DNA of 64,000 bases, taken from positions 1-64,000 of the forward strand of contig JAFSKV010000053.1 in NCBI GenBank assembly GCA_017448795.1. Direction: 5' to 3'. The stretch is from Synergistaceae bacterium (lineage in GTDB: Bacteria; Synergistota; Synergistia; Synergistales; Aminobacteriaceae). Below, one piece after another: positions 1 through 57,447 of this stretch (within the stretch, counting starts at the first letter, position 1; every line of letters starts with the position of its first letter). A model generated the notes under the pieces. It saw only the letters and a program-made list of their open reading frames with translations. It was not told where the DNA came from and searched no databases. The translations under genes were made by a program, and so were the position numbers.

Positions 1-33
1 GCGATGTGCGATGTGCGATGTGCGATGTGCGAT
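1..33. repeat. Tandem heptamer microsatellite, at least 4 copies
   Basis: The unit gcgatgt occurs four times without a mismatch, plus a partial gcgat, ending at the -10 box of element A. The left end is the window edge, so the copy number is a minimum. Confidence 0.9.
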
Positions 34-70
34 TATACACGGCCATCAACTTTGTGTCAAGCTCCTTTGC
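1..70 (-). promoter_or_regulatory. Promoter plus heptamer-repeat element (copy A), cut by window edge
   Basis: On the minus strand a TTGACA box (60-55), a 17-nt spacer and a TATAAT box (37-32) form a perfect sigma-70-type consensus. A tandem heptamer array (plus-strand unit gcgatgt, four full copies from 1 to 28) follows immediately and may continue beyond the window. A purine-rich AAAGGAGC (70-61) sits just upstream of the -35 box. An ATG at 46 opens a leader beginning MAVYNRTSHIAHR, the same leader as at 48987. The target gene lies outside the window to the left. Confidence 0.7.
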
Positions 71-133
71 GTATATTGTTGTTATGGATTATGCGGGAAT
101 TATACAGCATGGGGGGGAAATGTGCATTGAGGC

Positions 134-184: not shown

Positions 185-1900
185 CTATGACGGGTCAGGG
201 ATAATCTCTATCTCGTCCTCTTCAAGGATGAGCGGCTCTTCCCTTTCGTCTGGCCTGTGAATCTCGGTGAGGCTCTCGTCAAATTCCCCGTCGTTAATCA
301 CAGAGTCATCATCAAGATCATCCGGCAGTGCAAGCAAATCATCTTCTTCATCATCAGAATCATCCTGCCCGACCGTCTCAATGTCCTCAAACTCCATAGG
401 CTCGCCGTCAGAAAGAATATCGTCGTCATCATCGTCTTCATTGTCGTACTCAGGGATGACTTCAGGCTCTTGTTCTGGCTCAGTCTCAGTCTCAGGGATG
501 ACTTCAGCTTCAGGCTCTGGCTCTGGCTCAGTCTCAGGGATGACTTCAGCTTCAGGTTCTGGTTCAGTCTCAAGGACGACTTCAGGTTCAGGTTCTGGCT
601 CAGTCTCAAGGATGATTTCAGGCTCTGGCTCTGGCTCTGGCTCTGTCTCAGGGACGACTTCAGCTTCAGGTTCTGGTTCAGTCTCAAGGACGACTTCAGC
701 TTCAGGCTCTGGTTCAGTCTCAGGGACGACTTCAGCTTCAGGTTCTGGTTCAGTCTCAAGGACGACTTCAGCTTCAGGTTCTGGTTCAGTCTCAGGGATG
801 ACTTCAGCTTCAGGTTCTGGCACTGATTCCTGCTTGTGTTCCTCCTGCAATGCGTCATCAAGTTTTTCTTCCATCTCCCTGAAGGCTTCAACGAGTTCCG
901 CGTCAGTCTCAGCTTCCGGGATAAGGTCAAAGTCTCCTGCTGACGGTGCTTCTGTTTCAGATTCAGGGGCTGGGATTTCCTCCGTGATAATCCCGGCTTC
1001 AGGTGTGAGAATTTCGGCTGTTACGCCTGCTTCAGGTTCAGGGATTTCCGGGATAACGTAATCTTCAGGGGCGACAGTCTCGGCTGCTGCGTCTGCTTCC
1101 GATTCTGTCTCCGGCGCAAAGTGAGCTTCATCCCCGCTGGCAGTCTCAATCCTCACCGCGTCCTCGCTGACTGGCGGCAGTGTTACAGTCTCATCCGCCG
1201 GCAAGTCCTCAAACTCTTTGCCGTCCTGCAACAAAGGCACGAAAACCGCAACAACTTTCCGTGAGTCCCCAGCCGAGTCGTTAACCGCCTTCATAACCTC
1301 GTCATAAAGCCGCGAATGTCTGCCGTCCTTGTTCCTGATGATCTCGACAGCTTGGACATTTTCCGCGTCAGAAAACTCCCCTTCATCCGCCGGAATTTCC
1401 CGCGCCTCCCCCGTATCCTGTATCACAGGCACGAAGACAGCTACAATCTTTGTGTCCTTCCTGTCGCCTGAAGCCTTGTTTACCGCTTTCATGACCTCGT
1501 TATACAGCCACGAATGACGCGCTGAATCCTCCGGGGCAGACTCAGGCTCGGTGCTGGCGGGTTCTGGCTGCACGCCTAAGAATCTTTCCGCCGAAAACTT
1601 CACGGTGTCATCTTCCGGCTGTTCTAGGAGGCTGGCTGTTTCGGTCTCTCCTGCTGACGGGGCTGGCTCTGGCATCGGGGGCTTCTTGAGCTTCACGGGC
1701 TGAGTTTTCCCGCCAAGAAATCTGTCCGCCGCAAATCTCCCGGAGCCTTCACCGGGCTGCGCTGTGAGCCGCCTTCTCACGGACTCCTCAAGGCTTGGCA
1801 GGCGCGGGCGTTCGGGTTCTTCGCCGTTGTCCTTGCGCCATTCTGCCTCGTGGCGGTCAATTACGGCGTGTATGTTCTCCAGTCCCCTAAATATCCGCAT
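185..1900 (-). CDS. Acidic Pro-Glu repeat protein, partner of an orphan ParA
   Basis: I do not recognise the family. With the ATG at 1900 the product is 571 aa; an upstream ATG at 1939 is possible but has no visible ribosome site. Two copies of RF(A/S)A(D/E)RFLG occur at about 55 and 101. A duplicated module of about 45 residues, beginning RHS(W/R)LY(N/D)EVMKAVN and containing VAVFVP, sits at about 128-173 and 193-238. Residues 360-485 are a tandem run of roughly 12-residue units of the type [11 protein letters not shown], followed by poly-Asp and an acidic tail. There is no signal peptide or membrane segment, so it is probably cytosolic. It overlaps the end of the parA-like gene by 14 nt, which suggests coupled translation. 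A scaffold or cargo role for the ParA ATPase is inference from context. Confidence 0.75.
440..835. repeat. In-frame tandem repeats of about 36 bp coding for Pro-Glu units
   Basis: The plus strand shows repeated blocks of the type cagtctcagggacgacttca followed by gcttcaggttctggtt. They encode the [10 protein letters not shown] units of the acidic protein. Unit length varies slightly and remains a multiple of three, so copy-number change would lengthen or shorten the protein without a frameshift. Confidence 0.8.
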
Positions 1901-2576
1901 CTTCTGTATCAGCCTCTTTCTTGTCTGTCCACACTTCATTTATATCCGTTACTCCTGTGCCAAGCCTCTCAACAGCCGCAACTATCTTGTCATAGAGATG
2001 TTCATACGGCTGGCGCGAGCGTGCAATCAGCCCCGTTGACCAAACGCGCCCGGATGTTATGTTGTAGGGTATGTGCTTGTGAAGCGGCAGATCCTCAGCA
2101 ACAGGGTAACCGCGCTCGGAAATCAGCTGATTGGCTATCTTCGTCATCACTGAGCTGTCATAGCCGACTTTCACGAGGGGGAGCTGTGATTTCTCTTTCC
2201 CGGACTTGTTCGCCTCAGAGTACATGACTCCAAGATTTGACAGCGAGAAGAAATCAGGCCTCACAGGGACAACGACAATATCAGCGAAATCTATTGCGTA
2301 CTTGGAGTCCTCTTCCAGATTGGGCGGGCAGTCTATCACTATCCATTCTTCGGGGGCATCTGCGTCTGATTCTTCGAGGGTTGACTTTACGCGGAGGGAA
2401 TTGCGGAAGTAATTTCTCATGAAGCCTAATGCGTCCGTGAAGTTCCGGGACGGGTCAAGGTCTATTGCGAGGACTCTGTTGTGCCTCACAAGCGCGATTT
2501 CCGCCAGTATAACCGCTATGGTTGTCTTGCCGACTCCGCCTTTGCGGTTGAGAACTGCCACTGCAATTTTCGACAT
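1887..2576 (-). CDS. ParA/MinD-family P-loop ATPase, orphan
   Basis: A 229-aa ParA-type ATPase of the kind that positions DNA or protein cargo through ATP-dependent dimerisation. The deviant Walker A motif RKGGVGKTT at residues 11-19 carries the signature lysine, DLDPSRN follows at about 41, and the Walker A'/B-type stretch VIDCPPN is at about 80. No ParB, parS-like site, replication gene or MinC/MinE lies nearby, so this is an orphan rather than the chromosomal pair. It is followed with a short overlap by the acidic repeat protein, its likely partner, and preceded 26 nt upstream by the exporter gene. A role in polar placement of flagella, receptors or chromosome is possible but not shown. 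Confidence 0.88.
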
Positions 2577-23111: not shown

Positions 23112-24155
23112 CTAGGATTTATCGCGGCGGAACTTCAGGTATATCAGGCTATAGAGCTTGAGGCTGAACTTGAAGACGATAAGCTGGGCTTTTGTGATGA
23201 AGCGGATATGCCTGCATATTATCACTGCAAGCGGCCGTATTTCTCCCTGAATCTGCGATATATACCCCATGTCAGGAGTCCCGGCTTTTATCATGTAGTT
23301 CGCGACATGCAGCTTCCAGCACCACAATCCGGCAGAAAGATTCCTCACGGCTGATTTGTCCCCCTTGTTGAGGCTGAGTGCGAAATCGTAGCATTTCTGT
23401 GCGGCATCCGTTATGTCGTAAGTCCTGGGCGAGAACGAGTAATGCCCTATAGAGCCTGTCCGTCTCAAGTAATGGTAATATTCGCCGCTGACACATAATA
23501 TTCTGTCAGTCTTTGCCAGAATCTTGTACGTCGTGTAAATATCCTCGGATATTCGGCCTATTGGGTACTCTATGCCCCTGAGAAGGCCTGACTTTATGAG
23601 CTTGTTGCAGGATATGACATCGACCATTGACTGCGGGAAGAGAACGATGCTCAGTGCTTCCCGGCTGTTCATGAGGAGCGGGGGGTAATGCTTCCTGACC
23701 GTATGACGTTTTGCGCCGTCCTCATACTCAAGTACGAACCTGAAGCACACAATCTCAGCATCATATTCCCGCGCATATCCCAAGCAGGCCTCTATAGTCT
23801 CCGGGGCGATCCAGTCATCAGAGTCCACGAAAAGAACCCACTCGCCTTTTGCCTCACGTATTCCGACATTGCGAACCTCAGCGAGTCCCTTGTTGGTCTG
23901 GTGAATGACTCTCACGCGGGAATCTTTCCGGGCGTAATCGTCGCAGATTTTGCCGCTTGAATCAGCAGAGCCGTCATCAATGAGGAGGATTTCGAGATTG
24001 TTATATGTCTGTGCTGTAACGCTGTCAACGCACTTGGCAAGATATTTTTCTGTGTTGTAGACGGGAATTATCACGGAAATCAGGCCATGAAGTGCGGTCT
24101 GGTCTGGTCTGGTCAGGTCTAGTCTGGTCTGGTCAATTATGGCGCGATTCTGCAT
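23112..24155 (-). CDS. GT2-family glycosyltransferase with a pentamer-repeat 5' end
   Basis: 347 aa from ATG 24155 (MQNRAIID). Residues 25-130 are a GT-A domain of the GT2 family: LISVIIPVYNTEKYL, EILLIDDGSADSSG, then the metal-binding FVDSDDWI. These enzymes extend LPS, capsule or protein glycans from nucleotide sugars. The first 25 codons run through a (GACCA)-type pentamer array (8 units) and are not conserved-looking. No ATG, GTG or TTG in frame lies between the array and the GT2 core with a usable ribosome site, except a GTG inside the first strand. Expression therefore seems to need translation from MQNR through the array, so each gained or lost unit shifts the frame. Confidence 0.82.
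   Translation of the reverse strand: MQNRAIIDQTRLDLTRPDQTALHGLISVIIPVYNTEKYLAKCVDSVTAQTYNNLEILLIDDGSADSSGKICDDYARKDSRVRVIHQTNKGLAEVRNVGIREAKGEWVLFVDSDDWIAPETIEACLGYAREYDAEIVCFRFVLEYEDGAKRHTVRKHYPPLLMNSREALSIVLFPQSMVDVISCNKLIKSGLLRGIEYPIGRISEDIYTTYKILAKTDRILCVSGEYYHYLRRTGSIGHYSFSPRTYDITDAAQKCYDFALSLNKGDKSAVRNLSAGLWCWKLHVANYMIKAGTPDMGYISQIQGEIRPLAVIICRHIRFITKAQLIVFKFSLKLYSLIYLKFRRDKS
24096..24135. repeat. Tandem pentamer microsatellite, 8 units
   Basis: Plus-strand units ggtct, ggtct, ggtct, ggtca, ggtct, agtct, ggtct, ggtca. On the coding strand the array starts directly after the -10-like box and is translated in the 5' end of the GT2 gene. Confidence 0.9.
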
Positions 24156-24168
24156 TCTGTCAACCCCT
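24136..24168 (-). promoter_or_regulatory. Promoter-like box pair of repeat element D
   Basis: On the minus strand TTGACA (24163-24158), a 16-nt spacer and CATAAT (24141-24136), preceded by AAAAGGGG. The ATG of the downstream GT2 gene (24155) lies in the spacer. The box pair may be a promoter, or AAAAGGGG may be the ribosome site (eight nt before the ATG); both readings cannot serve the same transcript. Confidence 0.6.
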
Positions 24169-24175
24169 TTTCCGC

Positions 24176-47830: not shown

Positions 47831-48957
47831 AGAATATCTTTGTGTCATGCGGCGAGGTAAGCGGGGACATTTACGCGGGCGCATTCATCCGTGAGGCACT
47901 GAGGATTTCCCCTTCAGCAAGAATATGGGGAATGCTAGGCGACAACGGAGTGAAGGCCGGGGGTATTGCGGCATGGAGCTACGAGGAGTTGAAGCTCATG
48001 GGACTGCTGGAAATCCTCCCGGCAATCCCGCGAATCTTGCGGCTGAAACGCAACATTTCCCGCGAAATCATGGCCGTGAATCCTGACGCTGTAGTGCTGA
48101 TTGACTGCCCTGACTTTCACCTTATGCTTGCGCGTACGCTGAGGAAGGCCGGGTATTCCGGGAAGATCGTCTCGCTCATTCCTCCTACTGTGTGGGCTTG
48201 GCGTTCCGGGAGAGTCCGAAACCTGCGGCGGGATTTTGACGTTTGCCTTCCGCTGTTCTCGTTTGAGCATGAGTTCCTGCTGTCGAACGGGGTAAATTCG
48301 CGCTGGAAGTCTCATCCTTTAGTCCGCGAGATGGAGGGCGTGAGAGTCCCTGAGTCATTCCGTGAGAGGTTCGGCCATGAGAGAGTGATTGCGCTGATGC
48401 CCGGAAGCAGACGCTACGACATAAGATTTCACCTAGATATATTGCTTGGGACGGCTGAAATTCTGAGGCGTGAGGGATATTGCCCGGTGTTCTCTGTTGC
48501 TGAGGGACTGAGCGCGGGGCTTGCTGACGAAGTGAGGGGACGTGCCGGGAGTTCTGGCTTTGCTGTTTGGGAGGAAAGCGGGCGTGAATTGATGCTTGGC
48601 GCGGAGGCTGTGGCGGGAGTCTCCGGGACTGTGTCAGTTGAGGCTATGTTACTGCGGCGGTTCATGGTCGTCATCTACAACATGAGGCGGCTGAACTACG
48701 CAATCTTGAAGCGGCTTGTCCATGTCCGCAATATATCAATACCGAACATGCTGACAGGCAGGCAGGTTTACCCGGAATTGCTATGTGATGAGGCCACGCC
48801 GGGAAATATTGCGCGTGAGCTTGCGGGGTATCTGAGTGATGAGGGAGTGAGGCGTGAGACTGATGCTGCGCTGCAGGAGGCCCGGCGGTCTATGGGGGAA
48901 TATGATGCGGCGAGGTTCTGGGCTGAAACTGTTTCTGGTATAATCGGCAAATCCTAG
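47827..48957 (+). CDS. lpxB: Lipid-A-disaccharide synthase
   Basis: 376 aa, normal length. GT19 enzyme that joins UDP-2,3-diacyl-GlcN and lipid X, the product of LpxI. Motifs: FVSCGEVSGDIYAGAF at the start, LIPPTVWAWRSGRVRNLRRDFDVCLPLFSFE, ALMPGSRRYDI and the C-terminal RRLNYAILKRLVHVRNISIPNMLTGRQVYPELL. It starts inside the stop of the second symporter (ATGA). Element B follows nine nucleotides after its stop. Confidence 0.95.
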   Translation: MKNIFVSCGEVSGDIYAGAFIREALRISPSARIWGMLGDNGVKAGGIAAWSYEELKLMGLLEILPAIPRILRLKRNISREIMAVNPDAVVLIDCPDFHLMLARTLRKAGYSGKIVSLIPPTVWAWRSGRVRNLRRDFDVCLPLFSFEHEFLLSNGVNSRWKSHPLVREMEGVRVPESFRERFGHERVIALMPGSRRYDIRFHLDILLGTAEILRREGYCPVFSVAEGLSAGLADEVRGRAGSSGFAVWEESGRELMLGAEAVAGVSGTVSVEAMLLRRFMVVIYNMRRLNYAILKRLVHVRNISIPNMLTGRQVYPELLCDEATPGNIARELAGYLSDEGVRRETDAALQEARRSMGEYDAARFWAETVSGIIGKS

Positions 48958-48965
48958 ACACACGA

Positions 48966-49001
48966 AAGGAGCTTGACACAAGAATCATGGCCGTGTACAA
49001 T
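48966..49001 (+). promoter_or_regulatory. Promoter of repeat element B
   Basis: AAAGGAGC, then TTGACA (48973-48978), a 17-nt spacer and TACAAT (48996-49001). The layout is identical to element A at the left window edge and heads the glycosyltransferase at 49070. It starts nine nt after the lpxB stop. Confidence 0.75.
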
Positions 49002-49073
49002 CGCACATCGCACATCGCACATCGCCTGAATTATTCCCTTTTCCTGATTGACCTTACGGAGGCCGGGCAATGA
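48987..49073 (+). CDS. Leader peptide ORF across the heptamer array, coupled to a glycosyltransferase
   Basis: A 28-codon frame beginning MAVYNRTSHIAHR crosses the heptamer array and ends in the sequence caATGA, whose ATG is the start of the glycosyltransferase. The present three units place the leader stop exactly at the start, an arrangement typical of translational coupling. A change of one unit would move the leader into another frame and break that overlap. The AAAGGAG site is 15 nt before its ATG, which is long, and a transcript starting at the promoter above would not contain this ATG, so translation of the leader is unproven. Confidence 0.4.
   Translation: MAVYNRTSHIAHRLNYSLFLIDLTEAGQ
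49002..49025. repeat. Tandem heptamer microsatellite, 3 full copies
   Basis: Unit cgcacat, three perfect copies plus cgc, beginning right after the -10 box of element B. Same unit as at 1-33 (reverse strand). Confidence 0.9.
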
Positions 49074-50257
49074 GGGTAGTCCACATTCAGCCCGGAGGCT
49101 TCTATGACGGCTTAACCTATCAGGAGAACCTTCTCACAAAATGGCAGCACAGGAACGGACACGACGTAACAGTAATCACAACAAGATGGTCCGCCGACGC
49201 AAACGGAGTCCCCTGCCTCGTCCCGGAGAGCATGTATGACCGCGTCAACGAAGACGGAGTGAGGCTTATACGTCTTCCCCTGACCTGCGCGGACAGGTAC
49301 ACATTCGGCTATGATGAGCTGTACAGGACGATTGAGGCAATCAGCCCGGAAATCCTGTTTATACACGGGGTCGACCACAACACAAGCGCGCTCACAGACT
49401 ACCTCGCAAGACACAGGGAAGTAACAGCCTATGCGGACAATCACAAAGACTTCTCAAATTCCGGCTCATCCCTGCCCAAAATCATCCGGCGTATCGCAAA
49501 GCTGCTCCTGAAAACAGGACTGCCTGGGCTGTTGACCGCAAGACAACCGCGCAAACTCATACCCTGCGTGAAGAAATTTTACGGGGTACTTCCTGCCCGT
49601 GTCGACATCTTGAAGTATTACTACAAAATCCCGGCGGAAAAATGCGAACTCCTCCTCATGGGTGCTGATGATGATCTCGTCTCTGAGGCCTCAAACCCAA
49701 GCGTCAGGCAGAATATCCGCAACCAGTACGGCATCTCCCCTGATGACTTCCTCGTGATGACCGGCGGCAAAATCGACATCCCGAAATCCCAAACCCTGCT
49801 GCTCATGGAGACCGTAAGGAATCTCAATGCTGAACGCGGGAATGTCAGGCTGATTGTGTTCGGGCCGGTTGTCCCTGAGCTGAAGGCAAGGTTTGACGCT
49901 CTTGTTGACGGCAAGATTGTACAGCATGTCGGCTACGTGAAGGGGAATGACTCGTACAAGTACTTTGCGGCCTCAGACCTTGTTGTGTTTCCCGGCCGTC
50001 ATTCGGTCTACTGGGAGCAGGTTACAGGGCTCGGAGTCCCCATGCTCTGCAAGGAATGGGACGGCACAAAGCATGTCGATCTTGGCGGCAACGTGCGCTT
50101 CCTAAGACATGACAGCACGAAGGAAATCCAGCGTGAAATCGAACGCCTCTTGGACAATCCCGGCGAGTACGGGAAGATGAAGGAAGTTGCCCGGCGCGAA
50201 GGAATGAAGGTGTTTTCCTACAGACGGATAGCCCGCCAAAGCCTCGAAGAAATCTAG
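49070..50257 (+). CDS. GT4-like glycosyltransferase behind repeat element B
   Basis: 395 aa, a GT-B glycosyltransferase. The N-terminal half starts MRVVHIQPGGFYDGLTYQEN and the C-terminal half has FGPVVPELKARFDALV, YKYFAASDLVVFPGRHSVYWEQVTGLGVPMLC, the usual donor-binding region with a Glu-Gln instead of Glu-rich pair. It has GGAGG seven nt upstream of the ATG. The gene is separate from the nickel operon that follows. Being directly behind the repeat element, its expression is the likely output of that switch. Sugar specificity is unknown. Confidence 0.82.
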   Translation: MRVVHIQPGGFYDGLTYQENLLTKWQHRNGHDVTVITTRWSADANGVPCLVPESMYDRVNEDGVRLIRLPLTCADRYTFGYDELYRTIEAISPEILFIHGVDHNTSALTDYLARHREVTAYADNHKDFSNSGSSLPKIIRRIAKLLLKTGLPGLLTARQPRKLIPCVKKFYGVLPARVDILKYYYKIPAEKCELLLMGADDDLVSEASNPSVRQNIRNQYGISPDDFLVMTGGKIDIPKSQTLLLMETVRNLNAERGNVRLIVFGPVVPELKARFDALVDGKIVQHVGYVKGNDSYKYFAASDLVVFPGRHSVYWEQVTGLGVPMLCKEWDGTKHVDLGGNVRFLRHDSTKEIQREIERLLDNPGEYGKMKEVARREGMKVFSYRRIARQSLEEI

Positions 50258-56812: not shown

Positions 56813-56842
56813 AGTGTGCTACAATGTCAGCAATAAATTCAC

Positions 56843-56881
56843 GAGAAAGGAGCTTGACAGAATGCAAAATCGCGCCATAAT
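56843..56881 (+). promoter_or_regulatory. Promoter-like box pair of repeat element C
   Basis: AGAAAGGAGC, then TTGACA (56854-56859), a 16-nt spacer and CATAAT (56876-56881), the same layout as elements A, B and D. An ATG at 56862 lies in the spacer, nine nt after AGGAG. Confidence 0.65.
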
Positions 56882-57447
56882 CGACACGACACGACACGAC
56901 ACGCCTTCACTTTGCCGAAAAATATTCCGAAAGCTGTCCGTAAAATCCAGCAAAGTGTTCGCAAAACTCAGGGTTAATCTCATGTGGCCTCTGTATTCCC
57001 ATGTGGCAGGCTGGAAACCCGTCAGTCCCCGCAATTACGGCAGGCCGCTCATGGTGTCGCTTACTTCATTCCCCGCAAGAATCAACACCGTCCACAAAAC
57101 GATTCATTCCCTCATGCTACAGGACATGAAGCCCAACAGAATAATCCTGTGGCTGACGGATGAAGAGTTCCCAAATATTCCGCGAAATATGCACGACCAA
57201 CGATGACATATGGTTCTGGCTCATGGCCGCGCTTAACCATGTCCGTGTCCGTGCAACTGAGGGAAACCGTCCTCATCTTGCGCTTGCTTACGTTGGCAGT
57301 ACCCAGAAAGGCCCGACGCTCTCAAGCATAAATGACGGAGGGGAAAAATTGTTCTGGAAGGATTTTCACAGGATGCTCGGACATTACCCGGAGCTGGAAA
57401 AAATCCTGCGTGATGAATATGAACTCATGAAGGAGAACGAGGCCTGA
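56862..57447 (+). pseudogene. Glycosyltransferase with internal deletion and frameshift
   Basis: The first part (MQNRAIIDTTRHDT and onward) contains PLMVSLTSFPARINTVHKTIHSL and RIILWLTDEEFPNIPRNM in frame from 56862 to 57206. The last part of the same family (TNDDIWFWLMAALNHVRVRA, TQKGPTLSSIND) continues in another frame to 57447. Known relatives of this glycan transferase type have about 110-130 residues between the two; here the join falls near 57180, so the middle with the central acidic motif is lost. It sits behind repeat element C and is presumably non-functional. Confidence 0.72.
56883..56902. repeat. Tandem pentamer microsatellite, 4 copies
   Basis: Unit gacac, four perfect copies, directly after the -10-like box. 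In the ORF from 56862 it encodes TTRHD-type codons. Confidence 0.9.

Follow-up and report, generated by a model that had tools for sequence, protein, structure and literature searches.

A repeated module of ribosome-binding site, promoter-like hexamers and short tandem repeats, very probably a translational phase switch, ahead of mostly surface-glycan genes in a genus of Synergistaceae

Introduction

The opa pentamers and the lic loci are among the coding-region contingency loci of Haemophilus and Neisseria. In Haemophilus, tetranucleotide tracts act as simple-sequence contingency loci within coding regions (PMC2651432). The TAACTGA heptamer repeats of marine Beggiatoaceae are of another kind, being mostly intergenic, built of a single unit and usually devoid of a ribosome-binding site (PMC4679880). 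Translational coupling can be achieved via overlapping stop and start codons (PMC6728339).

The modules described here resemble the Haemophilus and Neisseria loci in that short units, whose length is not a multiple of three, lie near the 5' end of an ORF and would shift the frame of surface genes; unlike there, one cassette (a ribosome-binding site plus a consensus promoter) precedes many genes and many different units, and a class with a leader ORF is present. With the TAACTGA repeats they share the occurrence of many heptamer arrays scattered over a genome close to translation starts, but the arrays are coding, the units are varied and lie inside ORFs, and a ribosome-binding site is present, which sets them apart from the single-unit, mostly intergenic type. 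As in known translational coupling, the stop codon of a leader overlaps the next start (ATGA), although just one of the three repeat phases produces this overlap; a limited literature search retrieved no paper on such a phase-dependent combination and no report of repeat-based phase variation in Synergistaceae. Finally, the hexamers and their distance (TTGACA-17-TATAAT) are those of ordinary sigma-70 promoters, from which the present one (hereafter P2) differs in spanning the ribosome-binding site and the start codon and in having the array directly behind its -10 box.

Results

The window analyzed, 64 kb in length, is the beginning of contig C41 of a 2.54-Mb genome in 86 contigs. A first-pass annotation of its leftmost nucleotides had described a full-consensus promoter, pointing out of the window and running directly into a heptamer repeat, as a conserved dispersed element. 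The promoter sequence is real (minus strand, TTGACA at 60-55, a 17-nt spacer, TATAAT at 37-32) and the repeat does abut the -10 box. The repeats, however, are not a mere leader: they are codons of an ORF that starts in the spacer. Reading the element as a promoter only is thus incomplete, as it leaves out the ribosome-binding site before the -35 box, the start codon in the spacer and the dependence of the reading frame on repeat number. Since the variable part lies downstream of the -10 box, copy number cannot alter promoter spacing. From 68 to 1 of the window (minus strand), the module reads AAAGGAGC-TTGACA-CAAAGTTGATGGCCGTG-TATAAT-(CGCACAT)4+. Its parts (module 1) are:

99..104, minus strand: upstream -10-like TATAAT, candidate promoter P1 (from sequence)
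62..68, minus strand: ribosome-binding site AAAGGAG, directly before the -35 box (from sequence)
55..60, minus strand: P2 -35 box, TTGACA (from sequence, exact-pair search and conservation)
54-38, minus strand: spacer, 17 nt
44..46, minus strand: ATG start codon within the spacer (from sequence; frame open through the array)
32..37, minus strand: P2 -10 box, TATAAT (from sequence, exact-pair search and conservation)
1..33, minus strand: CGCACAT array, 4.7 copies, truncated at the contig end (gcgatgt x4.7, 100% match)

The exact pair TTGACA-N17-TATAAT occurs once in the window, in this module, against about 0.008 matches expected from base counts on both strands. Base 1 of the window is the first base of C41, hence the array is truncated by the assembly. 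The genome contains six CGCACAT sites (C41:1, C41:49000, the end of C49, C52, C55 and C72), and the only other one at a contig end occupies the last 33 nt of C49. With a left half-module at C41:1 and a right half-module at the end of C49, each with 33 nt of repeat, a join is probable, and the gene beyond position 1 would then probably be located on C49. There, a 307-aa gene without Pfam match begins about 60 nt past the array, and one array frame stops across its ATG; provided that the join is correct, a gene does lie less than 300 bp downstream, as the promoter reading had required. Adjacent to module 1, a 584-aa ORF (185-1939, minus strand) has an acidic repeat region (36-nt repeats, 486-820) and gave no Pfam match.

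The near copy 49 kb away, pointed out in the first-pass annotation, was confirmed: 48965-49025 (plus strand) is 92% identical to module 1 over 61 nt, its -10 box being TACAAT and its array comprising three full units. Two further modules in the window, both with 5-nt units (24171-24096, minus strand, and 56846-56903, plus strand), had escaped that annotation. The features of the three are:

24096..24171, minus strand: module 2, AAAAGGGG followed by TTGACA (24163-24158)
24155-24153, minus strand: ATG in the 16-nt spacer of module 2, with -10 box CATAAT at 24141-24136
24135-24096, minus strand: module 2 array, imperfect, 5-nt units of GACCA type
23112..24155, minus strand: glycosyltransferase family 2 (GT2) gene, 347 aa, fused to module 2 (PF00535, E 2.5e-42)
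48939..48944, plus strand: TGG-TATAAT upstream of module 3, candidate promoter P1 (from sequence)
48965..49025, plus strand: module 3, with AAAGGAG, TTGACA (48973-48978), ATG (48987-48989) and TACAAT (48996-49001)
49002-49025, plus strand: module 3 array, CGCACAT x3
48987..49073, plus strand: module 3 leader ORF, 28 codons, ending in a TGA that overlaps the ATG of the gene behind it (ATGA)
49070..50257, plus strand: gene for a 395-aa group-1 glycosyltransferase, coupled to module 3 (PF13524, E 7.2e-07)
56820..56825, plus strand: TGC-TACAAT upstream of module 4, candidate promoter P1 (from sequence)
56846..56903, plus strand: module 4, with AAAGGAG, TTGACA (56854-56859), ATG (56862-56864) and CATAAT (56876-56881), spacer 16 nt
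56882-56903, plus strand: module 4 array, CGACA x4.4
56862..57206, plus strand: 114-aa frame entered from module 4 at its current phase

Modules 1 and 3 both read ATG GCC GTG TAY AAT, and then the array as codons (R-T-S-H-I-A-H). Module 2 belongs to the class in which the start codon is fused to the gene, and is at present in frame; the leader ORF of module 3 is in its productive phase. The 114-aa frame of module 4 has no Pfam match, and the gene behind this module may be broken. Within 56862-57444 the 114-aa frame is followed by a similar-looking coding frame in a different phase.

The search was extended to 43 genomes of the genus, all metagenome assemblies, one per species, and yielded 99 modules after overlapping and spurious detections had been removed by hand; 17 have so far been found in the genome of the window. 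The catalogue comes partly from searches favoring good hexamers, for which a set of modules picked by repeat alone (24, non-redundant) served as control. Conservation measured on this repeat-only set amounts to 1.0-1.9 bits per position in the hexamers and 0.8-1.5 bits in the core of the ribosome-binding site, against 0-0.5 bits at most spacer positions. The dispersed nature of the element is not due to chance: AGGAGNTTGACA-N17-TATAAT, with one mismatch allowed, has 87 sites in 25 of the 43 genomes and the reversed pattern none. P2 is thus a real conserved sequence pattern whose function as a promoter is predicted. The start codon is ATG in 73, GTG in 8 and TTG in 4 of the 85 modules with an open start and enough downstream sequence, and its distance from the ribosome-binding site is often 15-16 nt, above the usual. 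A -10-like site upstream (P1), often TGnTATAAT and located 25-60 nt before the -35 box, is present at 56 of 66 loci (18 in shuffles), which makes an mRNA including the spacer start codon plausible.

Units are 7 nt long in 69 modules, 5 nt in 27 and 8 nt in 3; those of 6 and 9 nt were searched for and found in none of the 99. The unit sequences differ among modules (CGCACAT, TGGTCGC, TTCGCAG, CCCACAT, CCACA, CGACA, TCCAG, CGAAGCCA and others), and copy number ranges from 2 to 17, varying across loci and species (one assembly per species). An orthologous nitroreductase-like gene is preceded by 5 copies at L027, by 13 at L081 and by a different unit at L121. A tandem repeat adjoins 72 of the 83 unique sites picked on ribosome-binding site plus promoter alone, compared with 1% of random positions, and several of the remaining 11 bear imperfect repeats. 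In 364 kb of the genome of the window scanned for repeats, most perfect 5- and 7-nt repeats sit at module sites and the 6-nt ones do not. Eleven of the 99 arrays reach a contig end, as expected for long or mixed-length arrays. In the genome of the window (G000), the contigs that begin or end inside 5- or 7-nt arrays are C41 (start), C49 (end), C2 (end), C85 (end), C37 (start) and C81 (start), whose assembly was probably interrupted by long or mixed arrays.

The modules probably share a common ancestry. Fourteen of the 43 genomes contain CGCACAT arrays, the 57 others searched in the family and order contain none, and AGGAGNTTGACA-N17-TATAAT has a single match in other genera of the family (G046). 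All nameable records are metagenome assemblies of Synergistaceae/Synergistales from goat, red deer and reindeer. Matches of the collection scan outside the family (Phaeodactylibacter, Bacteroidetes, Richelia, Omnitrophica) do not contain the module and seem to be chance hits.

Loci were classified with thresholds set by us (180 aa for a fusion, 90 aa for the next gene). All 37 fused loci have a single productive phase out of three, and in 29 of them the following 300 nt contain no alternative in-frame start that has a ribosome-binding site; 13 are on and 24 off in the assemblies. At 41 of the 45 leader loci, one phase stops between -6 and +13 nt from the next start, compared with 19 for shuffled tails, and the exact 4-nt overlap of stop and start is found at 19 loci (10 for shuffled tails), the shuffling leaving the 15 nt before the start codon intact; the present phase is productive at 18 leader loci. 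Both states are represented in the genome of the window by two sugar-transferase genes, L028 (C55, three units, on) and L029 (C72, two units, off).

Judging by sequence, the genes behind the modules are mostly surface-glycan genes, namely glycosyltransferases, sugar-phosphate transferases and MBOAT acyltransferases. Pfam analysis of 82 proteins gave MBOAT (13), bacterial sugar transferase (8), glycosyltransferases of several families, nitroreductase (5), pyruvyl transferase (3), fucosyltransferase (3), FkbM methyltransferase (3) and a few secreted repeat proteins.

Discussion

The anatomy of the modules, their phase arithmetic, gene content and spread can be read from the sequences directly, and we infer from them slippage as the cause of repeat-number change, switching in living cells and coupling as the control of the leader class. 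Taken as a whole, the modules very probably form a set, spread over the genus, of translational phase switches driven by slippage, i.e., simple-sequence contingency loci: the units, not multiples of three, lie within an ORF that has one productive phase and precedes genes for surface structures. The mechanism could be as follows. P1 would transcribe an mRNA bearing the AAGGAG ribosome-binding site, and translation would begin at the ATG, GTG or TTG of the spacer and read through the array of 5-, 7- or 8-nt units, in which slipped-strand copying would gain or lose one unit and shift the frame. In one phase of three, the ribosome would read on into the full-length protein (fused class) or terminate on the following gene's start codon and re-initiate there (leader class); in the remaining two phases an early stop would turn the gene off. 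Two features speak against this reading: the often long distance from the ribosome-binding site to the start codon, and, at leader loci, a good ribosome-binding site belonging to the next gene itself, which could then be translated without coupling. The 17 modules in the genome of the window would permit many combinations of surface glycans. If so, these data point to a large phase-variable set of surface genes in uncultured Synergistaceae of the ruminant gut, and thanks to the common cassette such switches can readily be located and scored in metagenome reads.

The frame switch gives no account of the conservation of P2. It is possible, though on balance doubtful, that a real frame switch is combined with a P2 retained because it raises the slippage rate or serves the expression of later operon genes when the first one is off. 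Such a combination would fit the arrays of unrelated units, all of which begin between -3 and +4 nt from the end of the -10 box, as well as the conservation of P2, which is the same (about 0.95 matches per hexamer position) whether a locus is fused or has a leader; against it, P2 mismatches are not correlated with array length (rho 0.19, p 0.33, within a narrow range). As to the slippage route, RNA polymerase bound at P2 may perhaps open the DNA over the first repeat unit, which we put forward tentatively. That P2, superimposed on the ribosome-binding site and start codon, marks the places where slippage-prone arrays of nearly any 5-, 7- or 8-nt unit form and persist, in other words that it is a local mutator promoter, seems rather unlikely; as a guess, a role in local mutability is the one that we favor for P2. 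If true, this would be a promoter serving to raise the mutation rate of an array and not to express a gene. Because a strong promoter is consistently paired with unrelated units, it can be tested whether the mutation rate of a contingency locus is set by transcription initiation.

Could the module be first and foremost a promoter, with P2 driving the gene behind it and repeat copy number in the transcribed leader tuning expression? P2 does have conserved consensus hexamers and sigma-70 spacing (17 nt in 94 of the 99 modules, 16 nt in the other 5), an A/T tract at the place of an UP element, and the same form as the ordinary promoters of the genome. However, a transcript made from P2 would have its 5' end in the array and miss the start codon, so that the proteins of the fused class are not obtainable from it, a separate candidate promoter lies upstream, and neither the spacer start codons nor the one-phase rule nor the missing 6- and 9-nt units are predicted; we therefore consider this very unlikely. 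Among other signals, a reverse-strand promoter in the tail has a -35 match no better than shuffles, five folds of the leader RNA gave no hairpin stabler than shuffles (z +1.0 to +2.3), and no inverted repeats flanking the promoter segment were noticed by eye.

A weak motif, TAATTATKCCC, lies 3-5 nt past many arrays in varying reading frames (e.g., 49026-49040 of the window). A mobile or recombining nature of the module, copied as a cassette before glycan genes and with changes of repeat number being secondary, is scarcely credible. In its favor are the near-identical cores ahead of unrelated genes in one genome and the bracketing of the array by the promoter and this motif; against it are flanks that diverge beyond the core, viral contigs free of copies of the CGCACAT form, the weakness of the motif (8.0 bits vs. 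6.0 in shuffles) and a phase arithmetic that copying does not predict.

For the preferred translational phase switch, loss of mismatch repair was rejected as the cause of slippage, two MutS-domain genes being present in the genome. Loops of at least 5 nt are thought to escape MutS. As a separate observation, a module with GTTCGCA x9.3 is located shortly after a MutS-domain gene (G000:C81:16482-17300; L253, L210).
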